A program made the position numbers and the translations under genes. 64,000 bases of DNA, from positions 27,291,729-27,355,728 of the forward strand of contig CM049314.1 of assembly GCA_026874595.1 (NCBI GenBank), given 5' to 3'. The stretch comes from Sipunculus nudus. Lineage: Eukaryota > Annelida > Sipuncula > Golfingiida > Sipunculidae. The notes under the pieces were generated by a model that worked only from the letters and a program-made list of their open reading frames with translations, did not search any database and was not told the DNA's origin. This document shows positions 20,297 to 56,710 of this stretch, piece by piece; position 1 is the stretch's first letter, and each line of letters begins with the position of its first letter.

Positions 20297-21045
20297 CTTT
20301 TAAAAATACAAAAACACTGCCAGTGGGGTTGCCAGTCAGGCAGACTACCACAGATAGTCTGTAGATAGCCAGATTAAACAGTCAGATAAACCTTCACAAA
20401 GCTTGTAAGGCAGTAACTGAAATCTGACTTGATTCTGACTAGCTCTGCTTGCAAACCATTCCCACTACCTGGCATTTGCTTGATTAGTTAGCTTGTTCTC
20501 TGGGAGGATATATACCATATAGTCAGATTGATGACTATAGCTCTAGCTCTAGCATTTATATATTGTTGAACACAGGAGACGCCGTCTTATGGATTACAAG
20601 TCTGGTAATTAGAAAATAAATGACCACCTGTCGACCAGAAACGACAGCTCTTGGACTAACAGAATGTAAGGTAAATAATCAAACAGACTGAACGCCATTA
20701 GAGGTATGGTCATTAATCTGACTATCAGGCAAGTATCCTCCCAGAGACAGCTAACCAATCAGGCAAATAGGCCTCCAAGGAACTCGGTCAGAATGCCTGT
20801 CTAGTGACAAAACACCAGATAATTAATAAATATATCAAACAGGCTGGCCGTTATAGAGCTGGTCAATCAGAAAGACTATGACAGATGAACAGCTAGAGGT
20901 TTGCCACCAGAGCTAGTCAGAATCAAGTCAGATGTAAGTGACTGCCTGAAAAGCTTTGTGAAGGTGTGACTGTCTTATCTGACTATCTACTATCTGTGGT
21001 AATCTAACTGACTGAAACCAAAATGGCAGTGTTTCTGTATTTTTA
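20297..21045. repeat. Large imperfect palindrome (foldback) spanning the left edge of the tandem array
   Basis: The left arm (about 20297-20550) and right arm (about 20690-21045) are inverted copies. Both contain, in one or the other orientation, AAAAATACA(A/G)AAACACTGCCA, CCACAGATAGT, CCTTCACAAAGCTT, ATCTGACTTGATTCTGACTA, TCTCTGGGAGGATA and ATAGTCAGATT(G/A)ATGAC. The right arm has an extra ~110-130 bp. The right arm is repeated in all five array units; the left arm is single-copy because the array begins in the loop at 20547. Confidence 0.75.
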
Positions 21046-21099
21046 ATGGAGTTATAAGATCAGTTTCATTGTTTGAGATTCGGAATTTGTCTAATGTTC

Positions 21100-22369
21100 T
21101 GTATTTTTCTTTTTTGCTTACCACTGGTTTCTTTTTCATATGTCTGTTTTGCTATGTACTGAAAGAAATGTTGCAATAGAGAAGCATTATTTTCAATATC
21201 ATTTAATATATGATTTTGAAAAATGTTAATTTTATTTAAAACATATTGGTCCTGTAAAGGTTAGTAATTAGTGTTTTTTTTTATATTGGTTCCATTCTAT
21301 TATATCTTCTGCTATGATAGTTTGATTTATATAAATTCAATTTCAAATGTTGCAGTAACTGGGAAATGATCAGATGTGTCATCATGTAAAACCTCAAAAG
21401 ATTTAAGTTTATTTAAATTCTCGGAACTGTCTACAGTATAATAAATTAGTGATGTCCCTTTGGATTAGATATATGTAAAGTTTACATCTGTATCTGATGC
21501 AACATTTAAGGTATGAACAATTTATACACAATTCTTTAAGTGAGTGCCCAAATTTATTAATAACTTTATCTTTAGTTTTTCTTGGAGAAATAAAATCTCC
21601 CACATATTAATTTATTGATAAAAGTTTTTAAGTTGTCACTTCTAAATAGCCTTTTAGATTTCCTAGCATTTAAATCTCCATTATTATCAAGTCTAGCTGT
21701 CCATGTGTTTCTAACAGTTCTGTTGTTAAGATCATTTCAAGTCTTTTAATCCCATATGTTGTGCCCAATTTATAATTATATAACAGAATACTCAGGTGCG
21801 ATGTATGCAGAAAAAAAAACAATATTTTATACAAAGCCCTTATTCTTCACCATTTAAGATAATAATAAATATATCAGTAAACTTTGTCATGACAGGCATA
21901 ATATATTGTGTTAACTTTTGTTTTATATTCACAATAACTCCTTCCTTTAAATCTGTACGAATACTAGAGTATCTTTTGTAACCCAAGATATCACCAATAA
22001 ATTGTTTGTCTGATATAGCCCAATTTATAATTATATATAACAGAATACTCAGGTGCGATGTATGCAGAAAAAAAAACAATATTTTATACAAAGCCCTTAT
22101 TCTTCACAATTTAAGATAATAATAAATATATCAGTAAACTTTGTCATGACAGGCATAATATATTGTGTTAACTTTTGTTTTATATTCACAATAACTCCTT
22201 CCTTTAAATCTGTACGAATACTAGAGTATCTTTGGTAACCCAAGATATCACCAATAAATTGTTTGTCTGATATAGCCCATGTTTCAGTTATGACAATCAT
22301 ATCATATTGTGAAATTGTATGTCTGAAATTAAAATCATCTTCAGCTGTATTTAAACCTTGAATAATCAT
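21100..22369 (-). pseudogene. Degenerate endonuclease/exonuclease/phosphatase-type (retroelement AP-endonuclease) domain, unit 1
   Basis: On the minus strand, beginning at 22369, the frame reads MIIQGLN, then SQYDMIVITETWAISD, then LGYQRYSSIRTDLKEGVIV. This matches the N-terminal part of the endonuclease domain of non-LTR retrotransposons and Helentrons (the N-x-x-G-L, then D-x-x-x-x-T-E-T-W, then GY..YR pattern). Further along come GDFISPRKTKDKVINKFGHSL (21603 downward) and TSDHFPVTATF (about 21345-21380), the Ser-Asp-His motif that ends the fold. Metal-binding Glu and the SDH motif are visible, but the frame is broken by stops and by a tandem 257 bp duplication of the early part (21764-22018/22019-22275). 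No reverse transcriptase or Rep/helicase follows in the unit. Confidence 0.7.
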
Positions 22370-22928
22370 AAAATCATTTCAGTGTCAAATTTTGTCCTTT
22401 TATAGCTATATTGTTTCCCTTCAACTTACCTTTATTATCAAAATGGTCAGTAGAACAAGGGTGACTCAGATATCGACTGAGATGTAAACAGAATGAAATA
22501 CCACTGTTATAAAGTAAGAACGATTAAAATGAAATTTGTTTTATTTTATGTAGTCTATAATATGTATTAACATATTTTACATCATATTTTTATATATGTT
22601 AAGGTTTCTTATAACCGATAGCGTCAATTAGGCTTAATTCTGGTTTTTGAGAAATAATTATGATTATAATTATAATTAAAGATCTTAATATTATCAGAGG
22701 CGTAATTTCCTTTTGCACTCTCGCAGTGGGTGAGGGAGGGTGTCCCTCTTCCTCAATGCAAGAATATCGATGATTTTCTTTAAAAAATTCAGAAATTTAG
22801 AAGGAATGTTGGTATAAAATAACGGACTAATCTCGCTTCAGAAACAAAGAACAAATAAAAGTGTCGAACCTCGAAATACTTAGGGGGCAAATGTCTCCTG
22901 AGAAGCAGACATGGGTCGAATACAGAAG

Positions 22929-23060
22929 AAATGTTTTCGAATACGAATACAGCAGGGTACACGAATACGAATACGAATACAAATACTCCAAAACAAAAAT
23001 GTATCCGAATACGAATGCGAATCCATATACAAATGTATTCATGAATATCAATATGAATAC
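22929..23060. repeat. GAATAC hexamer block (first of two per unit)
   Basis: Imperfect GAATAC/GAATAT hexamers are interspersed with short unique runs. The repeat gives Tyr/Glu-rich or Arg/Ile-rich open frames on both strands, which are low-complexity shadows. Equivalent blocks begin near 30265, 37586, 44751 and 51923. Confidence 0.75.
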
Positions 23061-23749
23061 AAAATATTCATGCAAGTGTTTGAGGAGATTTGATGCGGTT
23101 TTCCAGTAGCTGAAATCTGTGCAGCAGAATACATGCATTAAGCTTTATGCGATCCATTGGTACAATCTTGCAGGTCAAAATGATCATGAATCACTGACAT
23201 CTTGGCAGGTGATGCCATACTGATTACTGTTCTACAATATCCCTGATAGACAGCAGATCACAGTGTGCATTAGAAACTGAAAATTGTATCTGACTCATGT
23301 CAGAGAATATATAAGGGTAGTCAGGTAAAGACATGTTGATTAGCTCACATGAACTGCTTAGACTTAATTAATTAATAGTACAGACAGCCAGAGTTAGTCA
23401 CAGTACAAGCCTGAACTGCTTGTATTGCTAACGCATGAATTCCTCAGTTTGGCTTAGACGTTAGGGTGAACAGTAACCAAATTTGAAGCTTCAGTAAGAA
23501 GTTCAGCAAGCAATGTCTTGTACATACACATGACAGAATATACACATTAATATTAATTTAATATCAATAAAGTAAAAAATGTAAAAATGTGTAAATAAGA
23601 TTGTTAGTGTGCATGTTTTAGGAGGTTCCGAATCAATCACTATTGAAATAATTGCCAATTTTTCCAAATGGATAAAGGACAAGAGGCAAACATCATTAAT
23701 GTCTACTGCATGTATTCATGTAAAGTATTCATGAATGTGAATACTTCTG

Positions 23750-23880
23750 CAATATATTTGAATATGAATACTAATACTTTTGAACTTTTTACAAATGTAT
23801 TCGAATACGAATACGAATACTGAAAATACCTGTATTCGAATGCAACATACGAATACGAACACTGATATACGAACTTCTTA
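23750..23880. repeat. GAATAC hexamer block (second of two per unit)
   Basis: This second block includes the palindrome GTATTCGAATAC followed by tandem GAATAC. It is separated from the first block by ~0.7 kb (units 1 and 2) or ~0.53 kb (units 3-5, which have the deletion). Equivalents begin near 31086, 38254, 45419 and 52591. Confidence 0.7.
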
Positions 23881-24830
23881 TATCCGCCGCTAGTTATTTT
23901 ACAATGAAACTTACAGTCAAGGTTTGAATTTTCCATGAAATTTCCATGAATTATTTAATTTGTGCCCTAATATCTCGGTTTCACAATGCAACGAAATGAG
24001 TTATTCATACTGTATCATTAGACATAGTTTTAAATTTATTCATGAAAAATTACATATTGTCACACTTTTTTCGTAAATAACTCGCACTTTACAAATTGAA
24101 ATTAGCGTCTACTTTTGTGATAAAATAACATTTTATTTTAACAACATGGTGATTTAAATGTATGTGTGGAGATTTTATGGTGTGTCACCTTTGGTCAGAA
24201 ATGATTACTGCTCAACATTCCGATCCTTCACAGTTTTTGTCCACTTAAAAACTGTAGTTGGTATACTCATTACAAGGAACAAAAATGGTTGGTAATTGTG
24301 ATTACACCCTATCCTTTGTAACACTCTTTGGCATATTTTACTCCTGTATTTGATATTATCAGATATTATTCTGATATAATATATATAAGATATGTAACTG
24401 TGGTTATCATATACCACTCTTTATCATAATGTGATATATATTAGCTAGATGACTTCACATTTTAATGTTTTGTTTAATCAAAAGTTTTCCTTTAAATCAA
24501 TTCTGCTTTGTACATAAGCAAATATGTAGTTATATGAGTTGTTAAATAGTATACATAATTCATTATATTTAAGAGTGTGGATATTCCAATCATGTGATTC
24601 TGGTAACCCCTCACCGGTTTGTATTATTTATTTTAATAGTACGTTTTATAAATAGCCTAGGAACATGCATAAAATTTACTCAAATGTAGTCAGTTATACT
24701 ATCTGGCAATGTTTGTTTCAACTGTAATGAGATATGCGAAACAAAACATAATGGCATATTGATTCAGTCGAACTTTTGTAACATCTTTCTAGGGACTGGC
24801 CAATGTGCCTTGAGGAAGTATATTAGCCAT

Positions 24831-25755
24831 TGTTTGTGAAAATAGGACCAATATTACAAAGTTATGAGGGAAATAAGATTTTGACTGGTTTTGATCACCT
24901 TGCCCTTGACTATTAACGTCTATAAAATACACATACAGTGTCCAGAAATCGTTCCGATATATGATACGTGTAAGTAAAAAGTGAATCTGGCAAAACTATG
25001 GCCTGTAGAATGCTATATGTCAAGTACAAAAACCAACAAGCAGCCGAAATTGAGAACTACTGACAAACAGACAGACATACTGACAACGTGACACTTCAGA
25101 GACAACAGGTGACTAGACCAGATTATGGAGATGACCCAGAGAAAGAAAATGAACTATAGCTTGTGAAAATAGGACCAATAATGACAGTGTTATGAGGAAA
25201 ATAAGATTCTTGTGTGTTTTGATCACCTTGGACTTTGGCCTATTTAAATAATTTACATATGACTTCTAGAGAACATTCGTATATAAGACGCATGAACCAG
25301 CCAGCAGGCGTTATTGAGGATAGCTGACAAACAGATAGACATACTGACAAAGTGACCCAAAGCAGAAGGCAGTTGACTGGACAATTTTATGTAGAATACG
25401 AAAAGGAAGCAAAGGAATAATGGTTTGTGAAAATAGGACCAAGATTGACAAGTTATGAGGAAAATCACATTTTGATGTGTTAAAGTGACTTTGCCTTTGA
25501 CCTTTGACCTATTTGGATAATATACATAGGACTTTCAGAAATCATCCTTGTATACATAATGTGAAAGTTAAAAATTGATTTTTGTTGAACTTTTGGCTGT
25601 AGATTACTAATAGTAAGATGCAAGAACCCGCACGCAAGCAAAATTGAGGACACTTGACAGACAGACAGGCATACTGACAAAGTGACACAATATTGAGACA
25701 AATCGACTTATCCAGGTTATGGAGAAGACCCAGGAGAACAAAATGCTCTATAGTT
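24831..25755. repeat. Nested three-copy ~270-330 bp tandem repeat inside each unit
   Basis: TTTGTGAAAATAGGACCAA-like starts occur near 24834, 25161 and 25435. Each is followed by GTTATGAGG.AAAT.AGATTT, GATCACCTTG-like sequence, then AGACAGACATACTGACAA and GTGACAC-like sequence. A TGACCTTTGACCT motif lies at 25498. The same block recurs near 32166, 39334, 46499 and 53674. Small minus-strand frames here are repeat shadows. Confidence 0.65.
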
Positions 25756-26868
25756 TATGTAGGCAAGTTTATACCTTTGGAGATTTGGATTAACAATGAT
25801 ATGTTGCAGTGTTTCGCGTCCAGCGCCCCCTAGTGGCCATGTTGATAAAAATGAAAAAAATATGTTCGAGCAACAAGTGTAGGACTTATGGTATGTCTGT
25901 TTCAAAATGTTTCCTGCAAAACTGTGATCCCCTACTCAGGATTAATTAAATCTCGAAAAATCTCGTTTGACGAGATATCGTACGGGATATTTCAAGACTT
26001 GTGATAAAATCTTGTAAAACTAAATAAACGTTACCTAAGGCAAAAAAGACTAGACCACTCTAGCTGAAAAACTGACAAAGTAAGAAAACTTAGACTTTTT
26101 CCCCTAATTGCGTAACCATGGTTAGAGCAGAAAGGAAACACACCAGAAGGAAACACTTGGAAAAACAAAGAAAATGAGCTATTTTTGAAGTAGATACTAC
26201 AAAGGGTGACACAGATATGAAGAAAAAGCCGTTTTGACGACCTTTGCCGTTGACCTATATTGACCAAAAACAATGAGCTTCCAGGGCTTTTAGTTTTCCA
26301 TCATCCCTGTTAGTTTAAAAGCGATTGCTGCAAAATTGTGGCATGTAGGGTCGTGACAAACAAACACAAATACACACACCCATAAACAAACAAACACACA
26401 GACATATGCAATTGACCATCAAGCTTGCCGAAATCCAAGATTCTGGCAAGCGAATATCGCATATATTTCTTACAAAATACCATAACACATGATCCAGGAG
26501 GGTAAAACTACAAATATGTTTTTGCGTGGCGTCCACCCATGCTTCTTAAAATCACTCTTATTTCAAGAATGGATTTCGGAGTGCATTTTTTTCCGTCCAT
26601 ACTGTATAAGGATAATAGCTGTATAAGGACTTGGAGCAAACTAACATTTCGCTCATGCACATATCTAATGCGAGGTTTGATGTATCGGCCCGATTATTTT
26701 CGTGTACACAATTCTTGGACAGCTTTATCTGGTGTAAAACTGGTTGTGCCATCAATACCTGCTTCATTTTTCGTCTGTCCGAGGAACCGTTTCGGGTGAA
26801 AATCACATCGCAGGAACGGTTTTATGTACTGATATATGTACTGATATGAACACGAAACCGTCTACATA

Positions 26869-26907
<39 letters not shown>

Positions 26908-26920
26908 TTATATAATGAAA
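26869..26920. repeat. TA microsatellite upstream of the 107 bp hairpin, unit 1
   Basis: This is TATATA-rich DNA with an ATACATAT interruption. Its length varies among units (equivalents near 34204, 41371, 48537 and 55711). Confidence 0.85.
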
Positions 26921-26943
26921 TAACCCTGTTTATCTGAGGTATA

Positions 26944-27050
26944 AGTGTAGGTAAAGAGTAAGAGTGACGCCTGACCACCTGACGAATAACGCTTCTAAAG
27001 CTATTGTGTTAGTCACATAAAAGGCGTCACTCATTCTCTTTACCTACACT
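26944..27050. repeat. 107 bp hairpin (MITE-like) flanked by TA microsatellites, unit 1
   Basis: The first 29 bases (AGTGTAGGTAAAGAG, then TAAGAGTGACGCCT) are an inverted copy of the last 29 with two mismatches, giving a long stem with a ~49-base loop. TA microsatellites lie on both sides. It has the form of a miniature inverted-repeat element inserted in TA, or of a precursor-like RNA hairpin. No transposase is linked to it. Confidence 0.75.
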
Positions 27051-27052
27051 AC

Positions 27053-27112
<60 letters not shown>

Positions 27113-27137
27113 TACACTTTATATATATATATATATA
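27051..27137. repeat. TA microsatellite downstream of the hairpin, unit 1
   Basis: Two TA tracts are separated by ACTACACTTTA. The ACTACACTT echoes the hairpin end, which suggests microsatellite expansion within an older inverted repeat. Length differs in every unit. Confidence 0.85.
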
Positions 27138-28434
27138 AACAATGGAATTAAAAGAATTAACCCATAGGCCATAACGCTGCAACAGACACCCAAAGGCACT
27201 AATAGATGTACATCTAAGTAAATATATGCGTTGTCCTAAGGAGAGTAGGAGAAAGGAGGTAGATCGTATGTAGCTTTATGGCATAAACCACTGTTTAAAA
27301 TTTCAAGGCAATGGCACGAACGTTTTTTCAGATTGTACTGGCGATAGGAAAACTAACATTGCTGCCATGCAATGGGGTTTTGCACATATGGCAGGTGTGC
27401 AATTCTTACATAAATACTAAAATATTCTCCAATAAAAATGTAAAATCCAAATCAATACCCTTAATTGTTAAGCAATACCCTTAATTGTTCTTCAGACAAG
27501 GCACATGAACAGAGTTTTGGTGTCCAATATTATTTTTTCCAACGGGTATGAAATAAGATAATACTAATCTTCTTCTACTGGCCAATAATTTTATATGACT
27601 CGACAGCAACGCTGGAACCAATTAAAAGATGAAAATGAAAAGAAAATCTTAGATCCCTGTCAAGTAGATATAAAGGATTCCTGAAGGATGTCAAACTTGA
27701 TAGCACACATGCCCTATATTGTTCCTGTATCACATCAATCTTAAGAACAATCACTTGAACGATTAACTAGAAAAGGAACCACATATAGATCATGTTGAAA
27801 TGTTGATGGGTCTCAGTTTGAAAAGCTCACGTACTTTGGTGGAGGCACATCATTGTTTAATGTATGTGCTAGAGAAAATGCTCTAGCATTTATATATTGT
27901 TGAACACAGGAGACGCCGTCTTATGGATTACAAGTCTGGTAATTAGAAAATAAATGACCACCTGTCGACCAGAAACGACAGCTCTTGGACTAACAGAATG
28001 TAAGGTAAATAATCAAACAGACTGAACGCCATTAGAGGTATGGTCATTAATCTGACTATCAGGCAAGTATCCTCCCAGAGACAGCTAACCAATCAGGCAA
28101 ATAGGCCTCCAAGGAACTCGGTCAGAATGCCTGTCTAGTGACAAAACACCAGATAATTAATAAATATATCAAACAGGCTGGCCGTTATAGAGCTGGTCAA
28201 TCAGAAAGACTATGACAGATGAACAGCTAGAGGTTTGCCACCAGAGCTAGTCAGAATCAAGTCAGATGTAAGTGACTGCCTGAAAAGCTTTGTGAAGGTG
28301 TGACTGTCTTATCTGACTATCTACTATCTGTGGTAATCTAACTGACTGAAACCAAAATGGCAGTGTTTCTGTATTTTTAATGGAGTTATAAGATCAGTTT
28401 CATTGTTTGAGATTCGGAATTTGTCTAATGTTCT

Positions 28435-29705
28435 GTATTTTTCTTTTTTGCTTACCACTGGTTTCTTTTTCATATGTCTGTTTTGCTATGTACTGAAAGA
28501 AATGTTGCAATAGAGAAGCATTATTTTCAATATCATTTAATATATGATTTTGAAAAATGTTAATTTTATTTAAAACATATTGGTCCTGTAAAGGTTAGTA
28601 ATTAGTGTTTTTTTTTTATATTGGTTCCATTCTATTATATCTTCTGCTATGATAGTTTGATTTATATAAATTCAATTTCAAATGTTGCAGTAACTGGGAA
28701 ATGATCAGATGTGTCATCATGTAAAACCTCAAAAGATTTAAGTTTATTTAAATTCTCGGAACTGTCTACAGTATAATAAATTAGTGATGTCCCTTTGGAT
28801 TAGATATATGTAAAGTTTCCATCTGTATCTGATGCAACATTTAAGGTATGAACAATTTATACACAATTCTTTAAGTGAGTGCCCAAATTTATTAATAACT
28901 TTATCTTTAGTTTTTCTTGGAGAAATAAAATCTCCCACATATTAATTTATTGATAAAAGTTTTTAAGTTGTCACTTCTAAATAGCCTTTTAGATTTCCTA
29001 GCATTTAAATCTCCATTATTATCAAGTCTAGCTCTCCATGTGTTTCTAACAGTTCTGTTGTTAAGATCATTTCAAGTCTTTTAATCCCATATGTTGTGCC
29101 CAATTTATAATTATATAACAGAATACTCAGGTGCGATGTATGCAGAAAAAAAAACAATATTTTATACAAAGCCCTTATTCTTCACCATTTAAGATAATAA
29201 TAAATATATCAGTAAACTTTGTCATGACAGGCATAATATATTGTGTTAACTTTTGTTTTATATTCACAATAACTCCTTCCTTTAAATCTGTACGAATACT
29301 AGAGTATCTTTGGTAACCCAAGATATCACCAATAAATTGTTTGTCTGATATAGCCCAATTTATAATTATATATAACAGAATACTCAGGTGCGATGTATGC
29401 AGAAAAAAAAAACAATATTTTATACAAAGCCCTTATTCTTCACAATTTAAGATAATAATAAATATATCAGTAAACTTTGTCATGACAGGCATAATATATT
29501 GTGTTAACTTTTGTTTTATATTCACAATAACTCCTTCCTTTAAATCTGTACGAATACTAGAGTATCTTTGGTAACCCAAGATATCACCAATAAATTGTTT
29601 GTCTGATATAGCCCATGTTTCAGTTATGACAATCATATCATATTGTGAAATTGTATGTCTGAAATTAAAATCATCTTCAGCTGTATTTAAACCTTGAATA
29701 ATCAT
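28435..29705 (-). pseudogene. Degenerate endonuclease domain, unit 2
   Basis: This has the same layout as in unit 1. The duplication copies are at 29099-29353 and 29354-29611. It differs from unit 1 by a few bases, for example Trp replacing Cys in the segment read as CCIRYR(C/W)KLYI. The same TETW and SDHFP landmarks are present, and it is broken in the same way. Confidence 0.68.
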
Positions 29706-32700
29706 AAAATCATTTCAGTGTCAAATTTTGTCCTTTTATAGCTATATTGTTTCCCTTCAACTTACCTTTATTATCAAAATGGTTAGTAGAACAAGGGTGA
29801 CTCAGATATCGACTGAGATGTAAACAGAATGAAATACCACTGTTATAAAGTAAGAACGATTAAAATGAAATTTGTTTTATTTTATGTAGTCTATAATATG
29901 TATTAACATATTTTACATCATATTTTTATATATGTTAAGGTTTCTTATAACCGATAGCGTCAATTAGGCTTAATTCTGGTTTTTGAGAAATAATTATGAT
30001 TATAATTATAATTAAAGATCTTAATATTATCAGAGGCGTAATTTCCTTTTGCACTCTCGCAGTGGGTGAGGGAGGGTGTCCCTCTTCCTCAATGCAAGAA
30101 TATCGATGATTTTCTTTAAAAAATTCAGAAATTTAGAAGGAATGTTGGTATAAAATAACGGACTAATCTCGCTTCAGAAACAAAGAACAAATAAAAGTGT
30201 CGAACCTCGAAATACTTAGGGGGCAAATGTCTCCTGAGAAGCAGACATGGGTCGAATACAGAAGAAATGTTTTCGAATACGAATACAGCAGGGTACACGA
30301 ATACCAATACGAATACAAATACTCCAAAACAAAAATGTATCCGAATACGAATGCGAATCCATATACAAATGTATTCATGAATATCAATATGAATACAAAA
30401 TATTCATGCAAGTGTTTGAGGAGATTTGATGCGGTTTTCCAGTAGCTGAAATCTGTGCAGCAGAATACATGCATTAAGCTTTATGCGATCCATTGGTACA
30501 ATCTTGCAGGTCAAAATGATCATGAATCACTGACATCTTGGCAGGTGATGCCATACTGATTACTGTTCTACAATATCCCTGATAGACAGCAGATCACAGT
30601 GTGCATTAGAAACTGAAAATTGTATCTGACTCATGTCAGAGAATATATAAGGGTAGTCAGGTAAAGACATGTTGATTAGCTCACATGAACTGCTTAGACT
30701 TAATTAATTAATAGTACAGACAGCCAGAGTTAGTCACAGTACAAGCCTGAACTGCTTGTATTGCTAACGCATGAATTCCTCAGTTTGGCTTAGACGTTAG
30801 GGTGAACAGTAACCAAATTTGAAGCTTCAGTAAGAAGTTCAGCAAGCAATGTCTTGTACATACACATGACAGAATATACACATTAATATTAATTTAATAT
30901 CAATAAAGTAAAAAATGTAAAAATGTGTAAATAAGATTGTTAGTGTGCATGTTTTAGGAGGTTCCGAATCAATCACTATTGAAATAATTGCCAATTTTTC
31001 CAAATGGATAAAGGACAAGAGGCAAACATCATTAATGTCTACTGCATGTATTCATGTAAAGTATTCATGAATGTGAATACTTCTGCAATATATTTGAATA
31101 TGAATACTAATACTTTTGAACTTTTTACAAATGTATTCGAATACGAATACGAATACTGAAAATACCTGTATTCGAATGCAACATACGAATACGAACACTG
31201 ATATACGAACTTCTTATATCCGCCGCTAGTTATTTTACAATGAAACTTACAGTCAAGGTTTGAATTTTCCATGAAATTTCCATGAATTATTTAATTTGTG
31301 CCCTAATATCTCGGTTTCACAATGCAACGAAATGAGTTATTCATACTGTATCATTAGACATAGTTTTAAATTTATTCATGAAAAATTACATATTGTCACA
31401 CTTTTTTCATAAATAACTCGCACTTTACAAATTGAAATTAGCGTCTACTTTTGTGATAAAATAACATTTTATTTTAACAACATGGTGATTTAAATGTATG
31501 TGTGGAGATTTTATGGTGTGTCACCTTTGGTCAGAAATGATTACTGCTCAACATTCCGATCCTTCACAGTTTTTGTCCACTTAAAAACTGTAGTTGGTAT
31601 ACTCATTACAAGGAACAAAAATGGTTGGTAATTGTGATTACACCCTATCCTTTGTAACACTCTTTGGCATATTTTACTCCTGTATTTGATATTATCAGAT
31701 ATTATTCTGATATAATATATATAAGATATGTAACTGTGGTTATCATATACCACTCTTTATCATAATGTGATATATATTAGCTAGATGACTTCACATTTTA
31801 ATGTTTTGTTTAATCAAAAGTTTTCCTTTAAATCAATTCTGCTTTGTACATAAGCAAATATGTAGTTATATGAGTTGTTAAATAGTATACATAATTCATT
31901 ATATTTAAGAGTGTGGATATTCCAATCATGTGATTCTGGTAACCCCTCACCGGTTTGTATTATTTATTTTAATAGTACGTTTTATAAATAGCCTAGGAAC
32001 ATGCATAAAATTTACTCAAATGTAGTCAGTTATACTATCTGGCAATGTTTGTTTCAACTGTAATGAGATATGCGAAACAAAACATAATGGCATATTGATT
32101 CAGTCGAACTTTTGTAACATCTTTCTAGGGACTGGCCAATGTGCCTTGAGGAAGTATATTAGCCATTGTTTGTGAAAATAGGACCAATATTACAAAGTTA
32201 TGAGGGAAATAAGATTTTGACTGGTTTTGATCACCTTGCCCTTGACTATTAACGTCTATAAAATACACATACAGTGTCCAGAAATCGTTCCGATATATGA
32301 TACGTGTAAGTAAAAAGTGAATCTGGCAAAACTATGGCCTGTAGAATGCTATATGTCAAGTACAAAAACCAACAAGCAGCCGAAATTGAGAACTACTGAC
32401 AAACAGACAGACATACTGACAACGTGACACTTCAGAGACAACAGGTGACTAGACCAGATTATGGAGATGACCCAGAGAAAGAAAATGAACTATAGCTTGT
32501 GAAAATAGGACCAATAATGACAGTGTTATGAGGAAAATAAGATTCTTGTGTGTTTTGATCACCTTGGACTTTGGCCTATTTAAATAATTTACATATGACT
32601 TCTAGAGAACATTCGTATATAAGACGCATGAACCAGCCAGCAGGCGTTATTGAGGATAGCTGACAAACAGATAGACATACTGACAAAGTGACCCAAAGCA

Positions 32701-34205
32701 GAAGGCAGTTGACTGGACAATTTTATGTAGAATACGAAAAGGAAGCAAAGGAATAATGGTTTGTGAAAATAGGACCAAGATTGACAAGTTATGAGGAAAA
32801 TCACATTTTGATGTGTTAAAGTGACTTTGCCTTTGACCTTTGACCTATTTGGATAATATACATAGGACTTTCAGAAATCATCCTTGTATACATAATGTGA
32901 AAGTTAAAAATTGATTTTTGTTGAACTTTTGGCTGTAGATTACTAATAGTAAGATGCAAGAACCCGCACGCAAGCAAAATTGAGGACACTTGACAGACAG
33001 ACAGGCATACTGACAAAGTGACACAATATTGAGACAAATCGACTTATCCAGGTTATGGAGAAGACCCAGGAGAACAAAATGCTCTATAGTTTATGTAGGC
33101 AAGTTTATACCTTTGGAGATTTGGATTAACAATGATATGTTGCAGTGTTTCGCGTCCAGCGCCCCCTAGTGGCCATGTTGATAAAAATGAAAAAAATATG
33201 TTCGAGCAACAAGTGTAGGACTTATGGTATGTCTGTTTCAAAATGTTTCCTGCAAAACTGTGATCCCCTACTCAGGATTAATTAAATCTCGAAAAATCTC
33301 GTTTGACGAGATATCGTACGGGATATTTCAAGACTTGTGATAAAATCTTGTAAAACTAAATAAACGTTACCTAAGGCAAAAAAGACTAGACCACTCTAGC
33401 TGAAAAACTGACAAAGTAAGAAAACTTAGACTTTTTCCCCTAATTGCGTAACCATGGTTAGAGCAGAAAGGAAACACACCAGAAGGAAACACTTGGAAAA
33501 ACAAAGAAAATGAGCTATTTTTGAAGTAGATACTACAAAGGGTGACACAGATATGAAGAAAAAGCCGTTTTGACGACCTTTGCCGTTGACCTATATTGAC
33601 CAAAAACAATGAGCTTCCAGGGCTTTTAGTTTTCCATCATCCCTGTTAGTTTAAAAGCGATTGCTGCAAAATTGTGGCATGTAGGGTCGTGACAAACAAA
33701 CACAAATACACACACCCATAAACAAACAAACACACAGACATATGCAATTGACCATCAAGCTTGCCGAAATCCAAGATTCTGGCAAGCGAATATCGCATAT
33801 ATTTCTTACAAAATACCATAACACATGATCCAGGAGGGTAAAACTACAAATATGTTTTTGCGTGGCGTCCACCCATGCTTCTTAAAATCACTCTTATTTC
33901 AAGAATGGATTTCGGAGTGCATTTTTTTCCGTCCATACTGTATAAGGATAATAGCTGTATAAGGACTTGGAGCAAACTAACATTTCGCTCATGCACATAT
34001 CTAATGCGAGGTTTGATGTATCGGCCCGATTATTTTCGTGTACACAATTCTTGGACAGCTTTATCTGGTGTAAAACTGGTTGTGCCATCAATACCTGCTT
34101 CATTTTTCGTCTGTCCGAGGAACCGTTTCGGGTGAAAATCACATCGCAGGAACGGTTTTATGTACTGATATATGTACTGATATGAACACGAAACCGTCTA
34201 CATAA

Positions 34206-34252
<47 letters not shown>

Positions 34253-34281
34253 ATGAAATAACCCTGTTTATCTGAGGTATA

Positions 34282-34387
34282 AGTGTAGGTAAAGAGTAAG
34301 AGTGACGCCTGACCACCTGACGAATAACGCTTCTAAAGCTATTGTGTTAGTCACATAAAAGGCGTCACTCATTCTCTTTACCTACAC

Positions 34388-34388
<1 letters not shown>
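34282..34388. repeat. 107 bp hairpin, unit 2
   Basis: Same length and stem as in unit 1, flanked by TA tracts. Confidence 0.75.
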
Positions 34389-34435
<47 letters not shown>

Positions 34436-41444: not shown

Positions 41445-41550
41445 AGTGTAGGTAAAGAGTAAGAGTGACGCCTGACCACCTGACGAATAACGCTTCTAAA
41501 GCTATTGTGTTAGTCACATAAAAGGCGTCACTCATTCTCTTTACCTACAC

Positions 41551-41551
<1 letters not shown>
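41445..41551. repeat. 107 bp hairpin, unit 3
   Basis: Same length and stem as in unit 1, flanked by TA tracts. Confidence 0.75.
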
Positions 41552-41602
<51 letters not shown>

Positions 41603-44191: not shown

Positions 44192-47100
44192 AAAATCATT
44201 TCAGTGTCAAATTTTGTCCTTTTATAGCTATATTGTTTCCCTTCAACTTACCTTTATTATCAAAATGGTTAGTAGAACAAGGGTGACTCAGATATCGACT
44301 GAGATGTAAACAGAATGAAATACCACTGTTATAAAGTAAGAACGATTAAAATGAAATTTGTTTTATTTTATGTAGTCTATAATATGTATTAACATATTTT
44401 ACATCATATTTTTATATATGTTAAGGTTTCTTATAACCGATAGCGTCAATTAGGCTTAATTCTGGTTTTTGAGAAATAATTATGATTATAATTATAATTA
44501 AAGATCTTAATATTATCAGAGGCGTAATTTCCTTTTGCACTCTCGCAGTGGGTGAGGGAGGGTGTCCCTCTTCCTCAATGCAAGAATATCGATGATTTTC
44601 TTTAAAAAATTCAGAAATTTAGAAGGAATGTTGGTATAAAATAACGGACTAATCTCGCTTCAGAAACAAAGAACAAATAAAAGTGTCGAACCTCGAAATA
44701 CCTAGGGGGCAAATGTCTCCTGAGAAGCAGACATGGGTCGAATACAGAAGAAATGTTTTCGAATACGAATACAGCAGGGTACACGAATACGAATACGAAT
44801 ACAAATACTCCAAAACAAAAATGTATCCGAATACGAATGCGAATCCATATACAAATGTATTCATGAATATCAATATGAATACAAAATATTCATGCAAGTG
44901 TTTGAGGAGATTTGATGCGGTTTTCCAGTAGCTGAAATCTGTGCAGCAGAATACATGCATTAAGCTTTATGCGATCCATTGGTACAATCTTGCAGGTCAA
45001 AATGATCATGAATCACTGACATCTTGGCAGGTGATGCCATACTGATTACTGTTCTACAATATCCCTGATAGACAGCAGATCACAGTGTGCATTAGAAACT
45101 GAAAATTGTATCTGACTCATGTCAGAGAATATATAAGGGTAGTCAGGTAAAGACATGTTGATTAGCTCACATGAACTGCTTAGACTTAATTAATTAATAG
45201 TACAGACAGCCAGAGTTAGTCACAGTACAAGTACAATAAAGTAAAAAATGTAAAAATGTGTAAATAAGATTGTTAGTGTGCATGTTTTAGGAGGTTCCGA
45301 ATCAATCACTATTGAAATAATTGCCAATTTTTCCAAATGGATAAAGGACAAGAGGCAAACATCATTAATGTCTACTGCATGTATTCATGTAAAGTATTCA
45401 TGAATGTGAATACTTCTGCAATATATTTGAATATGAATACTAATACTTTTGAACTTTTTACAAATGTATTCGAATACGAATACGAATACTGAAAATACCT
45501 GTATTCGAATGCAATATACGAATACGAACACTGATATACGAACTTCTTATATCCGCCGCTAGTTATTTTACAATGAAACTTACAGTCAAGGTTTGAATTT
45601 TCCATGAAATTTCCATGAATTATTTAATTTGTGCCCTAATATCTCGGTTTCACAATGCAACGAAATGAGTTATTCATACTGTATCATTAGACATAGTTTT
45701 AAATTTATTCATGAAAAATTACATATTGTCACACTTTTTTCGTAAATAACTCGCACTTTACAAATTGAAATTAGCGTCTACTTTTGTGATAAAATAACAT
45801 TTTATTTAACAACATGGTGATTTAAATGTATGTGTGGAGATTTTATGGTGTGTCACCTTTGGTCAGAAATGATTACTGCTCAACATTCCGATCCTTCACA
45901 GTTTTTGTCCACTTAAAAACTGTAGTTGGTATACTCATTACAAGGAACAAAAATGGTTGGTAATTGTGATTACACCCTATCCTTTGTAACACTCTTTGGC
46001 ATATTTTACTCATGTATTTGATATTATCAGATATTATTCTGATATAATATATATAAGATATGTAACTGTGGTTATCATATACCACTCTTTATCATAATGT
46101 GATATATATTAGCTAGATGACTTCACATTTTAATGTTTTGTTTAATCAAAAGTTTTCCTTTAAATCAATTCTGCTTTGTACATAAGCAAATATGTAGTTA
46201 TATGAGTTGTTAAATAGTATACATAATTCATTATATTTAAGAGTGTGGATATTCCAATCATGTGATTCTGGTAACCCCTCACCGGTTTGTATTATTTATT
46301 TTAATAGTACGTTTTATAAATAGCCTAGGAACATGCATAAAATTTACTCAAATGTAGTCAGTTATACTATCTGGCAATGTTTGTTTCAACTGTAATGAGA
46401 TATGCGAAACAAAACATAATGGCATATTGATTCAGTCGAACTTTTGTAACATCTTTCTAGGGACTGGCCAATGTGCCTTGAGGAAGTATATTAGCCATTG
46501 TTTGTGAAAATAGGACCAATATTACAAAGTTATGAGGGAAATAAGATTTTGACTGGTTTTGATCACCTTGCCCTTGACTATTAACGTCTATAAAATACAC
46601 ATACAGTGTCCAGAAATCGTTCCGATATATGATACGTGTAAGTAAAAAGTGAATCTGGCAAAACTATGGCCTGTAGAATGCTATATGTCAAGTACAAAAA
46701 CCAACAAGCAGCCGAAATTGAGAACTAATGACAAACAGACAGACATACTGACAACGTGACACTTCAGAGACAACAGGTGACTAGACCAGATTATGGAGAT
46801 GACCCAGAGAAAGAAAATGAACTATAGCTTGTGAAAATAGGACCAATAATGACAGTGTTATGAGGAAAATAAGATTCTTGTGTGTTTTGATCACCTTGGA
46901 CTTTGGCCTATTTAAATAATTTACATATGACTTCTAGAGAACATTCGTATATAAGACGCATGAACCAGCCAGCAGGCGTTATTGAGGATAGCTGACAAAC
47001 AGATAGACATACTGACAAAGTGACCCAAAGCAGAAGGCAGTTGACTGGACAATTTTATGTAGAATACGAAAAGGAAGCAAAGGAATAATGGTTTGTGAAA

Positions 47101-48536
47101 ATAGGACCAAGATTGACAAGTTATGAGGAAAATCACATTTTGATGTGTTAAAGTGACTTTGCCTTTGACCTTTGACCTATTTGGATAATATACATAGGAC
47201 TTTCAGAAATCATCCTTGTATACATAATGTGAAAGTTAAAAATTGATTTTTGTTGAACTTTTGGCTGTAGATTACTAATAGTAAGATGCAAGAACCCGCA
47301 CGCAAGCAAAATTGAGGACACTTGACAGACAGACAGGCATACTGACAAAGTGACACAATATTGAGACAAATCGACTTATCCAGGTTATGGAGAAGACCCA
47401 GGAGAACAAAATGCTCTATAGTTTATGTAGGCAAGTTTATACCTTTGGAGATTTGGATTAACAATGATATGTTGCAGTGTTTCGCGTCCAGCGCCCCCTA
47501 GTGGCCATGTTGATAAAAATGAAAAAAATATGTTCGAGCAACAAGTGTAGGACTTATGGTATGTCTGTTTCAAAATGTTTCCTGCAAAACTGTGATCCCC
47601 TACTCAGGATTAATTAAATCTCGAAAAATCTCGTTTGACGAGATATCGTACGGGATATTTCAAGACTTGTGATAAAATCTTGTAAAACTAAATAAACGTT
47701 ACCTAAGGCAAAAAAGACTAGACCACTCTAGCTGAAAAACTGACAAAGTAAGAAAACTTAGACTTTTTCCCCTAATTGCGTAACCATGGTTAGAGCAGAA
47801 AGGAAACACACCAGAAGGAAACACTTGGAAAAACAAAGAAAATGAGCTATTTTTGAAGTAGATACTACAAAGGGTGACACAGATATGAAGAAAAAGCCGT
47901 TTTGACGACCTTTGCCGTTGACCTATATTGACCAAAAACAATGAGCTTCCAGGGCTTTTAGTTTTCCATCATCCCTGTTAGTTTAAAAGCGATTGCTGCA
48001 AAATTGTGGCATGTAGGGTCGTGACAAACAAACACAAATACACACACCCATAAACAAACAAACACACAGACATATGCAATTGACCATCAAGCTTGCCGAA
48101 ATCCAAGATTCTGGCAAGCGAATATCGCATATATTTCTTACAAAATACCATAACACATGATCCAGGAGGGTAAAACTACAAATATGTTTTTGCGTGGCGT
48201 CCACCCATGCTTCTTAAAATCACTCTTATTTCAAGAATGGATTTCGGAGTGCATTTTTTTCCGTCCATACTGTATAAGGATAATAGCTGTATAAGGACTT
48301 GGAGCAAACTAACATTTCGCTCATGCACATATCTAATGCGAGGTTTGATGTATCGGCCCGATTATTTTCGTGTACACAATTCTTGGACAGCTTTATCTGG
48401 TGTAAAACTGGTTGTGCCATCAATACCTGCTTCATTTTTCGTCTGTCTGAGGAACCGTTTCGGGTGAAAATCACATCGCAGGAACGGTTTTATGTACTGA
48501 TATATGTACTGATATGAACACGAAACCGTCTACATA

Positions 48537-48573
<37 letters not shown>

Positions 48574-48609
48574 TTATATAATGAAATAACCCTGTTTATC
48601 TGAGGTATA

Positions 48610-48715
48610 AGTGTAGGTAAAGAGTAAGAGTGACGCCTGACCACCTGACGAATAACGCTTCTAAAGCTATTGTGTTAGTCACATAAAAGGCGTCACTCAT
48701 TCTCTTTACCTACAC

Positions 48716-48716
<1 letters not shown>
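48610..48716. repeat. 107 bp hairpin, unit 4
   Basis: Same length and stem as in unit 1; the downstream TA tract is longer here. Confidence 0.75.
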
Positions 48717-48775
<59 letters not shown>

Positions 48776-50093
48776 TACACTTTATATATATATATATAAA
48801 CAATGGAATTAAAAGAATTAACCCATAGGCCATAACGCTGCAACAGACACCCAAAGGCACTAATAGATGTACATCTAAGTAAATATATGCGTTGTCCTAA
48901 GGAGAGTAGGAGAAAGGAGGTAGATCGTATGTAGCTTTATGGCATAAACCACTGTTTAAAATTTCAAGGCAATGGCACGAACGTTTTTTCAGATTGTACT
49001 GGCGATAGGAAAACTAACATTGCTGCCATGCAATGGGGTTTTGCACATATGGCAGGTGTGCAATTCTTACATAAATACTAAAATATTCTCCAATAAAAAT
49101 GTAAAATCCAAATCAATACCCTTAATTGTTAAGCAATACCCTTAATTGTTCTTCAGACAAGGCACATGAACAGAGTTTTGGTGTCCAATATTATTTTTTC
49201 CAACGGGTATGAAATAAGATAATACTAATCTTCTTCTACTGACCAATAATTTTATATGACTCGACAGCAACGCTGGAACCAATTAAAAGATGAAAATGAA
49301 AAGAAAATCTTAGATCCCTGTCAAGTAGATATAAAGGATTCCTGAAGGATGTCAAACTTGATAGCACACATGCCCTATATTGTTCCTGTATCACATCAAT
49401 CTTAAGAACAATCACTTGAACGATTAACTAGAAAAGGAACCACATATAGATCATGTTGAAATGTTGATGGGTCTCAGTTTGAAAAGCTCACGTACTTTGG
49501 TGGAGGCACATCATTGTTTAATGTATTTGCTAGAGAAAATGCTCTAGCATTTATATATTGTTGAACACAGGAGACGCCGTCTTATGGATTACAAGTCTGG
49601 TAATTAGAAAATAAATGACCACCTGTCGACCAGAAACGACAGCTCTTGGACTAACAGAATGTAAGGTAAATAATCAAACAGACTGAACGCCATTAGAGGT
49701 ATGGTCATTAATCTGACTATCAGGCAAGTATCCTCCCAGAGACAGCTAACCAATCAGGCAAATAGGCCTCCAAGGAACTCGGTCAGAATGCCTGTCTAGT
49801 GACAAAACACCAGATAATTAATAAATATATCAAACAGGCTGGCCGTTATAAAGCTGGTCAATCAGAAAGACTATGACAGATGAACAGCTAGAGGTTTGCC
49901 ACCAGAGCTAGTCAGAATCAAGTCAGATGTAAGTGACTGCCTGAAAAGCTTTGTGAAGGTGTGACTGTCTTATCTGACTATCTACTATCTGTGGTAATCT
50001 AACTGACTGAAACCAAAATGGCAGTGTTTCTGTATTTTTAATGGAGTTATAAGATCAGTTTCATTGTTTGAGATTCGGAATTTGTCTAATGTT

Positions 50094-51363
50094 CTGTATT
50101 TTTCTTTTTTGCTTACCACTGGTTTCTTTTTCATATGTCTGTTTTGCTATGTACTGAAAGAAATGTTGCAATAGAGAAGCATTATTTTCAATATCATTTA
50201 ATATATGATTTTGAAAAATGTTAATTTTATTTAAAACATATTGGTCCTGTAAAGGTTAGTAATTAGTGTTTTTTTTATATTGGTTCCATTCTATTATATC
50301 TTCTGCTATGATAGTTTGATTTATATAAATTCAATTTCAAATGTTGCAGTAACTGGGAAATGATCAGATGTGTCATCATGTAAAACCTCAAAAGATTTAA
50401 GTTTATTTAAATTCTCGGAACTGTCTACAGTATAATAAATTAGTGATGTCCCTTTGGATTAGATATATGTAAAGTTTCCATCTGTATCTGATGCAACATT
50501 TAAGGTATGAACAATTTATACACAATTCTTTAAGTGAGTGCCCAAATTTATTAATAACTTTATCTTTAGTTTTTCTTGGAGAAATAAAATCTCCCACATA
50601 TTAATTTATTGATAAAAGTTTTTAAGTTGTCACTTCTAAATAGCCTTTTAGATTTCCTAGCATTTAAATCTCCATTATTATCAAGTCTAGCTCTCCATGT
50701 GTTTCTAACAGTTCTGTTGTTAAGATCATTTCAAGTCTTTTAATCCCATATGTTGTGCCCAATTTATAATTATATAACAGAATACTCAGGTGCGATGTAT
50801 GCAGAAAAAAAAACAATATTTTATACAAAGCCCTTATTCTTCACCATTTAAGATAATAATAAATATATCAGTAAACTTTGTCATGACAGGCATAATATAT
50901 TGTGTTAACTTTTGTTTTATATTCACAATAACTCCTTCATTTAAATCTGTACGAATACTAGAGTATCTTTGGTAACCCAAGATATCACCAATAAATTGTT
51001 TGTCTGATATAGCCCAATTTATAATTATATATAACAGAATACTCAGGTGCGATGTATGCAGAAAAAAAAACAATATTTTATACAAAGCCCTTATTCTTCA
51101 CAATTTAAGATAATAATAAATATATCAGTAAACTTTGTCATGACAGGCATAATATATAATGTTAACTTTTGTTTTATATTCACAATAACTCCTTCCTTTA
51201 AATCTGTACGAATACTAGAGTATCTTTGGTAACCCAAGATATCACCAATAAATTGTTTGTCTGATATAGCCCATGTTTCAGTTATGACAATCATATCATA
51301 TTGTGAAATTGTATGTCTGAAATTAAAATCATCTTCAGCTGTATTTAAACCTTGAATAATCAT
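50094..51363 (-). pseudogene. Degenerate endonuclease domain, unit 5
   Basis: This is the same domain remnant. The duplication copies are at 50758-51012 and 51013-51269. Private changes lie in the duplicated part (RTDLNEG in one copy; a TATATAATG variant for TATATTGTG in the other). Confidence 0.68.
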
Positions 51364-54300
51364 AAAATCATTTCAGTGTCAAATTTTGTCCTTTTATAGC
51401 TATATTGTTTCCCTTCAACTTACCTTTATTATCAAAATGGTTAGTAGAACAAGGGTGACTCAGATATCGACTGAGATGTAAACAGAATGAAATACCACTG
51501 TTATAAAGTAAGAACGATTAAAATGAAATTTGTTTTATTTTATGTAGTCTATAATATGTATTAACATATTTTACATCATATTTTTATATATGTTAAGGTT
51601 TCTTATAACCGATAGCGTCAATTAGGCTTAATTCTGGTTTTTGAGAAATAATTATGATTATAATTATAATTAAAGATCTTAATATTATCAGAGGCGTAAT
51701 TTCCTTTTGCACTCTCGCAGTGGGTGAGGGAGGGTGTCCCTCTTCCTCAATGCAAGAATATCGATGATTTTCTTTAAAAAATTCAGAAATTTAGAAGGAA
51801 TGTTGGTATAAAATAACGGACTAATCTCGCTTCAGAAACAAAGAACAAATAAAAGTGTCGAACCTCGAAATACTTAGGGGGCAAATGTCTCCTGAGAAGC
51901 AGACATGGGTCGAATACAGAAGAAATGTTTTCGAATACGAATACAGCAGGGTACACGAATACGAATACGAATACAAATACTCCAAAACAAAAATGTATCC
52001 GAATACGAATGCGAATCCATATACAAATGTATTCATGAATATCAATATGAATACAAAATATTCATGCAAGTGTTTGAGGAGATTTGATGCGGTTTTCCAG
52101 TAGCTGAAATCTGTGCAGCAGAATACATGCATTAAGCTTTATGCGATCCATTGGTACAATCTTGCAGGTCAAAATGATCATGAATCACTGACATCTTGGC
52201 AGGTGATGCCATACTGATTACTGTTCTACAATATCCCTGATAGACAGCAGATCACAGTGTGCATTAGAAACTGAAAATTGTATCTGACTCATGTCAGAGA
52301 ATATATAAGGGTAGTCAGGTAAAGACATGTTGATTAGCTCACATGAACTGCTTAGACTTAATTAATTAATAGTACAGACAGCCAGAGTTAGTCACAGTAC
52401 AAGTACAATAAAGTAAAAAATGTAAAAATGTGTAAATAAGATTGTTAGTGTGCATGTTTTAGGAGGTTCCGAATCAATCACTATTGAAATAATTGCCAAT
52501 TTTTCCAAATGGATAAAGGACAAGAGGCAAACATCATTAATGTCTACTGCATGTATTCATGTAAAGTATTCATGAATGTGAATACTTCTGCAATATATTT
52601 GAATATGAATACTAATACTTTTGAACTTTTTACAAATGTATTCGAATACGAATACGAATACTGAAAATACCTGTATTCGAATGCAACATACGAATACGAA
52701 CACTGATATACGAACTTCTTATATCCGCCGCTAGTTATTTTACAATGAAACTTACAGTCAAGGTTTGAATTTTCCATGAAATTTCCATGAATTATTTAAT
52801 TTGTGCCCTAATATCTCGGTTTCACAATGCAACGAAATGAGTTATTCATACTGTATCATTAGACATAGTTTTAAATTTATTCATGAAAAATTACATATTG
52901 TCACACTTTTTTCGTAAATAACTCGCACTTTACAAATTGAAATTAGCGTCTACTTTTGTGATAAAATAACATTTTATTTAACAACATGGTGATTTAAATG
53001 TATGTGTGGAGATTTTATGGTGTGTCACCTTTGGTCAGAAATGATTACTGCTCAACATTCCGATCCTTCACAGTTTTTGTCCACTTAAAAAAAACTGTAG
53101 TTGGTATACTCATTACAAGGAACAAAAATGGTTGGTAATTGTGATTACACCCTATCCTTTGTAACACTCTTTGGCATATTTTACTCATGTATTTGATATT
53201 ATCAGATATTATTCTGATATAATATATATAAGATATGTAACTGTGGTTATCATATACCACTCTTTATCATAATGTGATATATATTAGCTAGATGACTTCA
53301 CATTTTAATGTTTTGTTTAATCAAAAGTTTTCCTTTAAATCAATTCTGCTTTGTACATAAGCAAATATGTAGTTATATGAGTTGTTAAATAGTATACATA
53401 ATTCATTATATTTAAGAGTGTGGATATTCCAATCATGTGATTCTGGTAACCCCTCACCGGTTTGTATTATTTATTTTAATAGTACGTTTTATAAATAGCC
53501 TAGGAACATGCATAAAATTTACTCAAATGTAGTCAGTTATACTATCTGGCAATGTTTGTTTCAACTGTAATGAGATATGCGAAACAAAACATAATGGCAT
53601 ATTGATTCAGTCGAACTTTTGTAACATCTTTCTAGGGACTGGCCATTGTGCCTTGAGGAAGTATATTAGCCATTGTTTGTGAAAATAGGACCAATATTAC
53701 AAAGTTATGAGGGAAATAAGATTTTGACTGGTTTTGATCACCTTGCCCTTGACTATTAACGTCTATAAAATACACATACAGTGTCCAGAAATCGTTCCGA
53801 TATATGATACGTGTAAGTAAAAAGTGAATCTGGCAAAACTATGGCCTGTAGAATGCTATATGTCAAGTACAAAAACCAACAAGCAGCCGAAATTGAGAAC
53901 TACTGACAAACAGACAGACATACTGACAACGTGACACTTCAGAGACAACAGGTGACTAGACCAGATTATGGAGATGACCCAGAGAAAGAAAATGAACTAT
54001 AGCTTGTGAAAATAGGACCAATAATGACAGTGTTATGAGGAAAATAAGATTCTTGTGTGTTTTGATCACCTTGGACTTTGGCCTATTTAAATAATTTACA
54101 TATGACTTCTAGAGAACATTCGTATATAAGACGCATGAACCAGCCAGCAGGCGTTATTGAGGATAGCTGACAAACAGATAGACATACTGACAAAGTGACC
54201 CAAAGCAGAAGGCAGTTGACTGGACAATTTTATGTAGAATACGAAAAGGAAGCAAAGGAATAATGGTTTGTGAAAATAGGACCAAGATTGACAAGTTATG

Positions 54301-55711
54301 AGGAAAATCACATTTTGATGTGTTAAAGTGACTTTGCCTTTGACCTTTGACCTATTTGGATAATATACATAGGACTTTCAGAAATCATCCTTGTATACAT
54401 AATGTGAAAGTTAAAAATTGATTTTTGTTGAACTTTTGGCTGTAGATTACTAATAGTAAGATGCAAGAACCCGCACGCAAGCAAAATTGAGGACACTTGA
54501 CAGACAGACAGGCATACTGACAAAGTGACACAATATTGAGACAAATCGACTTATCCAGGTTATGGAGAAGACCCAGGAGAACAAAATGCTCTATAGTTTA
54601 TGTAGGCAAGTTTATACCTTTGGAGATTTGGATTAACAATGATATGTTGCAGTGTTTCGCGTCCAGCGCCCCCTAGTGGCCATGTTGATAAAAATGAAAA
54701 AAATATGTTCGAGCAACAAGTGTAGGACTTATGGTATGTCTGTTTCAAAATGTTTCCTGCAAAACTGTGATCCCCTACTCAGGATTAATTAAATCTCGAA
54801 AAATCTCGTTTGACGAGATATCGTACGGGATATTTCAAGACTTGTGATAAAATCTTGTAAAACTAAATAAACGTTACCTAAGGCAAAAAAGACTAGACCA
54901 CTCTAGCTGAAAAACTGACAAAGTAAGAAAACTTAGACTTTTTCCCCTAATTGCGTAACCATGGTTAGAGCAGAAAGGAAACACACCAGAAGGAAACACT
55001 TGGAAAAACAAAGAAAATGAGCTATTTTTGAAGTAGATACTACAAAGGGTGACACAGATATGAAGAAAAAGCCGTTTTGACGACCTTTGCCGTTGACCTA
55101 TATTGACCAAAAACAATGAGCTTCCAGGGCTTTTAGTTTTCCATCATCCCTGTTAGTTTAAAAGCGATTGCTGCAAAATTGTGGCATGTAGGGTCGTGAC
55201 AAACAAACACAAATACACACACCCATAAACAAACAAACACACAGACATATGCAATTGACCATCAAGCTTGCCGAAATCCAAGATTCTGGCAAGCGAATAT
55301 CGCATATATTTCTTACAAAATACCATAACACATGATCCAGGAGGGTAAAACTACAAATATGTTTTTGCGTGGCGTCCACCCATGCTTCTTAAAATCACTC
55401 TTATTTCAAGAATGGATTTCGGAGTGCATTTTTTTCCGTCCATACTGTATAAGGATAATAGCTGTATAAGGACTTGGAGCAAACTAACATTTCGCTCATG
55501 CACATATCTAATGCGAGGTTTGATGTATCGGCCCGATTATTTTCGTGTACACAATTCTTGGACAGCTTTATCTGGTGTAAAACTGGTTGTGCCATCAATA
55601 CCTGCTTCATTTTTCGTCTGTCCGAGGAACCGTTTCGGGTGAATATCACATCGCAGGAACGGTTTTATGTACTGATATATGTACTGATATGAACACGAAA
55701 CCGTCTACATA

Positions 55712-55744
<33 letters not shown>

Positions 55745-55780
55745 TTATATAATGAAATAACCCTGTTTATCTGAGGTATA

Positions 55781-55886
55781 AGTGTAGGTAAAGAGTAAGA
55801 GTGACGCCTGACCACCTGACGAATAACGCTTCTAAAGCTATTGTGTTAGTCACATAAAAGGCGTCACTCATTCTCTTTACCTACAC

Positions 55887-55887
<1 letters not shown>
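55781..55887. repeat. 107 bp hairpin, unit 5
   Basis: Same length and stem as in unit 1, with a shorter upstream TA tract. Confidence 0.75.
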
Positions 55888-55942
<55 letters not shown>

Positions 55943-56710
55943 TACACTTTATATATATATATATATAAACAATGGAATTAAAAGAATTAACCCATAGGCC
56001 ATAACGCTGCAACAGACACCCAAAGGCACTAATAGATGTACATCTAAGTAAATATATGCGTTGTCCTAAGGAGAGTAGGAGAAAGGAGGTAGATCGTATG
56101 TAGCTTTATGGCATAAACCACTGTTTAAAATTTCAAGGCAATGGCACGAACGTTTTTTCAGATTGTACTGGCGATAGGAAAACTAACATTGCTGCCATGC
56201 AATGGGGTTTTGCACATATGGCAGGTGTGCAATTCTTACATAAATACTAAAATATTCTCCAATAAAAATGTAAAATCCAAATCAATACCCTTAATTGTTA
56301 AGCAATACCCTTAATTGTTCTTCAGACAAGGCACATGAACAGAGTTTTGGTGTCCAATATTATTTTTTCCAACGGGTATGAAATAAGATAATACTAATCT
56401 TCTTCTACTGACCAATAATTTTATATGACTCGACAGCAACGCTGGAACCAATTAAAAGATGAAAATGAAAAGAAAATCTTAGATCCCTGTCAAGTAGATA
56501 TAAAGGATTCCTGAAGGATGTCAAACTTGATAGCACACATGCCCTATATTGTTCCTGTATCACATCAATCTTAAGAACAATCACTTGAACGATTAACTAG
56601 AAAAGGAACCACATATAGATCATGTTGAAATGTTGATGGGTCTCAGTTTGAAAAGCTCACGTACTTTGGTGGAGGCACATCATTGTTTAATGTATGTGCT
56701 AGAGATAATG

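Follow-up and report, generated by a model that had tools for sequence, protein, structure and literature searches.

Introduction

The natural tandem arrays of CUP1 in yeast arose from one-copy strains (Zhao et al. 2014, PMC4232551). Their repeat joints have either no homology or up to 3 bp of it, and changes in copy number are described in that paper as unequal crossover. Kilobase units in one tandem block also make up human macrosatellites, among them DXZ4 and D4Z4, and a 7.3 kb tRNA repeat at 1q23.3, for which 9-43 units per allele and CTCF binding are reported (PMC3218863, PMC3018141, PMC4041453).

The tandem array of Sipunculus nudus described here resembled CUP1 in having a known one-copy state and very short homology at the new joint, 1 bp with one flank and 0 bp with the other, as against up to 3 bp in the CUP1 joints that the yeast report treats. 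It differed from CUP1, whose unit bears a gene and measures 1998 bp in the type 1 array of that report, in that its 7.2 kb unit was without an evident gene and was found in an animal. Like the macrosatellites, it was built of a kilobase head-to-tail unit confined to one or few loci, as judged from the roughly one half of the unit that was searched in the genome; unlike them, it had five units in the assembly and not tens of copies. The array is small and young, resembles a macrosatellite and belongs to a kind already known; by itself it is an ordinary structural variant.

Array structure and unit content

The window, that is, the whole 64,000-nucleotide stretch analysed (C9:27291729-27355728), had a G+C content of 34.7% by base counts, and genome searches covered an assembly of 1,426,538,692 bases in 153 contigs. 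A blastn comparison of the window with unit 3, together with an alignment of all units, resolved positions 20547-56710 into five whole head-to-tail units on the plus strand: unit 1 at 20547-27880 (7334 bp), unit 2 at 27881-35203 (7323 bp), unit 3 at 35204-42368 (7165 bp), unit 4 at 42369-49541 (7173 bp) and unit 5 at 49542-56710 (7169 bp). The preliminary description had given the same starts and end, with the five lengths as periods, and the alignment found all of them exact. The left flank and the unit ends agreed over 1 bp and the right flank and the unit starts over 0 bp; the array therefore comprised exactly five whole units.

Units 1, 2, 4 and 5 matched unit 3 in long blastn pieces that were 99.58-99.90% identical, which is not a chance resemblance. 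Raw pairwise substitutions among the five units numbered 7-17. Without the columns of an AT-rich microsatellite, at unit positions 6330-6580, and a further two columns next to the 153-bp gap, 4-13 substitutions were left over about 6.9-7.1 kb, with a mean of 0.136%. The earlier impression of almost no divergence was correct, yet each unit could be told from the others. The largest indel was a stretch of 153 bp in the alignment, present in unit 1 (23410-23564) and unit 2 (30746-30900) and absent from units 3-5.

The expectation that the unit holds no intact gene was borne out. The longest stop-to-stop frame per unit was 105 aa, and none of the ten longest unit 3 frames, from 16 of at least 70 aa, had a Pfam family above the cut-off (best E 0.16, below it); a protein-coding unit was set aside on these grounds. 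An RNA gene was likewise rejected, with zero Rfam matches at the gathering score and zero tRNAs by ARAGORN. A 257-bp direct repeat in two copies (21763-22279 in unit 1) recurred in all units, microsatellites were also part of the unit, and dispersed repeats were located by the genome search at about 2356-3185 and 5397-5764 of unit 3. By eye, the minus strand at about 21340-22378 resembled a remnant of a LINE endonuclease, for which Pfam gave no confirmation. A short inverted-repeat element, GTGTAGGTAAAGAG...CTCTTTACCTACAC, was also seen by eye at 26945-27049 and in the other units, adjoining AT microsatellites.

The genome search covered about half of the unit (positions 1-497, 2001-3597 and 5397-6697 of unit 3, and the final 211 bp of unit 5). 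For this half, near-identical copies were found only in the array and at one further place, which holds a single copy. The remaining matches were 66-92% identical, save a 48-base microsatellite, and most were partial; eleven spanned all of unit positions 1-497, at 76-77%. The searched parts are pieces of old dispersed repeats together with stretches unique to the array and the one-copy place. As no transposon ends coincided with both unit ends either, the earlier proposal that the unit is a composite transposon cluster was not upheld.

A one-copy counterpart on the same contig

Six matches to bases 1-497 of unit 3 were found in the genome at 100% identity (rounded), namely the five array units and one at C9:28094220. 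Alignment of this latter place, C9:28094220-28101537, 0.78 Mb downstream on the same contig, revealed exactly one unit between the same flanks. Its surroundings aligned collinearly, on the same strand, with the window and 10 kb of sequence beyond either end; the exceptions were the extra units and one block of 4.1 kb. This block, at about 13889-18000 of the window, included most of a 333-bp tandem repeat (13676-15524) and was absent from the second place. Counted in three long aligned blocks outside the unit, with repeat-to-repeat alignments left out, the flanks of the two places differed by 149 substitutions in 43,684 sites (0.341%). The joint between the left flank (L) and the unit (X) was identical at both places, and the sequence across the right break point, at 56710/56711 between X and the right flank (R), was continuous in the one-copy place, bar one substitution per side within 15 bp. 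With these same outer joints, the second place therefore supplied the one-copy state and fixed both break points to 1 bp.

Each array unit differed from the one-copy unit by 13-18 substitutions in about 6.9-7.1 kb, with a mean of 0.218%. At the flank rate, 24.1 substitutions were expected for 7,078 sites, and the Poisson lower tails of the observed counts ranged from 0.010 to 0.12; unit and flank rates may therefore differ. The array appears to be young rather than brand-new, because the mean divergence among its units was about 60% of the mean divergence from the one-copy unit. Ten substitutions relative to the one-copy unit were common to all five units, a number not above that expected on the one-copy branch alone at the flank rate (half of 24.1), and the array may therefore have an age close to that of the divergence between the two places.

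Origin of the array

The contig carries L-X-R at one place and L-X5-R, with identical outer joints, in the window, and from this arrangement we infer the route by which the array was born. Most probably it is a real tandem segmental duplication, in which L-X-R became X-X by a joining event with at most 1 bp of homology and the array then grew to five units by unequal exchange. In the L-X-R ancestor, the right end of X would have been joined to the left end of X by end joining, or by a template switch at a replication fork, with 1 bp of homology at the resulting X-X joint according to the alignment (left flank 1 bp, right flank 0 bp). The X copies would then have mispaired and exchanged unequally until five were present. 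Expansion at the window place is a simpler reading than loss of units at the other place.

The preliminary description had offered two origins, and part of each could be retained. Recent unequal exchange, proposed for the birth of a macrosatellite, can enlarge an array by homologous recombination, but homology at the first joint is limited to 1 bp, and the first duplication was therefore more likely non-homologous or replication-based. The alternative, replication-based amplification, accordingly fits the first step; its transposon-cluster form was not borne out.

The variants among the units bear on their later history. Across units 1-5, site 2423 reads GCCGG, site 3798 CCAAA and site 7035 GGAAA; between site 2423, a single site in a simple-repeat-like stretch, and each of the other two, all four combinations occur. 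When the units were cut out of phase at 2600, the best of nine cuts tried, a neighbouring pair differed by 3 raw substitutions, against 7 in the closest in-phase pairs; after filtering, the closest in-phase pair differed by 4. Both observations would suit unequal exchange, on the strength of few sites. The absence of the 153-bp stretch from units 3-5 is derived, because the one-copy unit has the stretch and nine dispersed relatives, among the matches listed, carry 160-176 extra bases there; one lineage of units would thus have lost 153 bp.

Probable segmental duplications around the array

Receptor gene families form segmental-duplication clusters, and the surroundings of the array were of a similar appearance. 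An uninterrupted 394-aa frame on the plus strand at 60545-61729 of the window was assigned LRR and Ig domains by a domain scan, and the best 60 of its 318 solved-chain matches included, at their head, an animal growth-factor-binding subunit and Toll-like receptors. A genome search with this frame recovered 21 matches, a count that includes the frame itself and partial hits, and every one of them lay on C9 at 27.09-28.69 Mb. These matches and the paired blocks of several ages described below are like a receptor-family cluster; unlike the genes of such a cluster, the array unit itself carries no LRR-Ig frame. Elsewhere in the window, positions 1308-4334 held broken retroelement-like frames. These showed a CCCH zinc finger, a weak match to reverse transcriptase (Pfam E 0.037, under the cut-off) and a motif that by eye we take to be tyrosine-recombinase-like, which would make the element DIRS-like. 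Besides the 333-bp tandem repeat, there were others at 10864-12041 (291 bp) and 57397-58358 (476 bp), and pieces of the 333-bp and 476-bp repeats matched each other at 72-79%.

How far the large duplication reaches was gauged from spot samples. Pairs between the two blocks were 98.9% identical at 27,212,001, 99.6% at 27,241,729, 99.8% at 27,261,729, 99.3% at 27,405,001 and 98.8% at 27,465,001, while 27,185,422-27,189,000 paired at 96.0% and the sequence just before it at 91.1%. The spot at 27,765,001 is a high-copy repeat; among the best 40 of its 9570 candidates there was no near-identical match, and those found were inverted ones on C9 at 89-90% and dispersed ones at up to 86%. Among matches of at least 250 bases, the expected pairs 27,563,500/28,318,110 and 27,765,001/28,518,110 gave no match.

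On sequence grounds the one-copy place may be either a collinear paralogue or an uncollapsed allele. If it were the other allele, retained as a haplotig, the array would be a 1-versus-5 copy polymorphism of one individual, which we regard as a real but tentative possibility; it concerns the identity of the second place, and the route of birth of the array would be the same. Although the 0.34% of flank substitutions would suit alleles, as would two consecutive blocks in the same orientation, the first block ends and the second begins within about 1 kb (27,967,454 to 27,968,444), inside an 8 kb stretch without N, and identity, 91-96% at one edge, reaches 99.8% in mid-block. Other pieces pair at different offsets, of 572 kb (97.0% and 98.2%) and, within the second block, of 135 kb (90-96%), and the spot at 27,181,729 has its single match above 80% at 28,679,116 (94%). 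This pattern resembles a duplication cluster of several ages, but very different haplotypes could imitate it. Our reading of the surroundings is that segmental duplications of different ages are clustered here; the alternative is a haplotype left uncollapsed in a species of very high variability. As a tandem segmental duplication, the array would be a neutral passenger in this active cluster with its LRR-Ig genes, no product of it being visible in the DNA.

Assembling five long units that are nearly identical is difficult, and a shorter array, or a single unit, might have been inflated by the assembler. We consider such an artefact improbable, given that the units are 4-13 substitutions apart and differ by indels as well, that some variants are common to units 3-5 or to units 1-2 while others are private, and that the outer joints agree with the ones at the second place. 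Simple stuttering of the assembler is unlikely because no two units are the same and adjacent units have variants in common.

A mobile element multiplying head to tail, as a rolling-circle Helitron or as a terminal-inverted-repeat element inserted as a concatemer, is very improbable: the unit ends do show an 8-bp inverted match (CTCTAGCA/TGCTAGAG), but 41 of 4000 random flank-position pairs equalled it, zero transposases or replicases were found among the ten unit 3 frames scanned, near-identical copies of the searched half were restricted to the two places, and no empty L-R site was present among the best 40 of 3246 candidates. The two forms of this idea were rejected separately. Helitrons have 5' TC and 3' CTRR ends, and both were absent from the units, which start with CTCTAG and end with AATG. 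For a terminal-inverted-repeat transposon, only the 8-bp match was found, no transposase was present in the ten frames, and the end of L and the start of R had no common repeat. The 8-bp inverted match is weak evidence, and a 6-bp direct match was common, seen in 690 of 4000 random flank-position pairs.

Break points and the fold-back repeat

For the tandem segmental duplication that we favor, the position of the left break point (20546/20547, movable by 1 bp) is of particular relevance. It lies at a fold-back repeat, the left arm of which (20300-20545, minus strand) is outside the array and consists of two inverted pieces, 20300-20457 and 20474-20545, that match parts of 20699-21046 at 82% and 83%. 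The latter interval is the right arm (plus strand), which lies within unit 1 and recurs in each unit. As single-stranded DNA, 20290-21060 was predicted to fold at -187.6 kcal/mol, against a shuffle mean of -79.2 (sd 6.6, n=20; z -16.5), and 0 of 20 shuffles folded as well. In a separate fold, 192 of the 246 left-arm bases were paired with the right arm, the innermost pair being 20545-20699. The break adjoins this pair, and therefore the left break lies at the edge between the predicted stem and loop. The right break had no notable fold (z -0.64, with 55 of 200 shuffles as good).

The left end of X, at the edge of the hairpin loop, would be a likely site of stalling or breakage, and it is plausible from the predicted fold that the hairpin triggered the break or template switch, a coincidence that was noticed post hoc. 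Relatives of the fold-back repeat occurred on many contigs at 66-88% identity among the best 40 of 100 candidates. That this dispersed family seeds tandem amplification, with a joint at the exact stem/loop edge and one arm left outside the array, so that each member would be a latent array start, is an idea that we put forward as doubtful.

Conclusions

The same assembly contained a young array of kilobase units together with its one-copy state, with base-exact break points, one of them at a hairpin edge, and the first step of array birth is thereby made testable. The dispersed fold-back family offers a genome-wide test of hairpin seeding.
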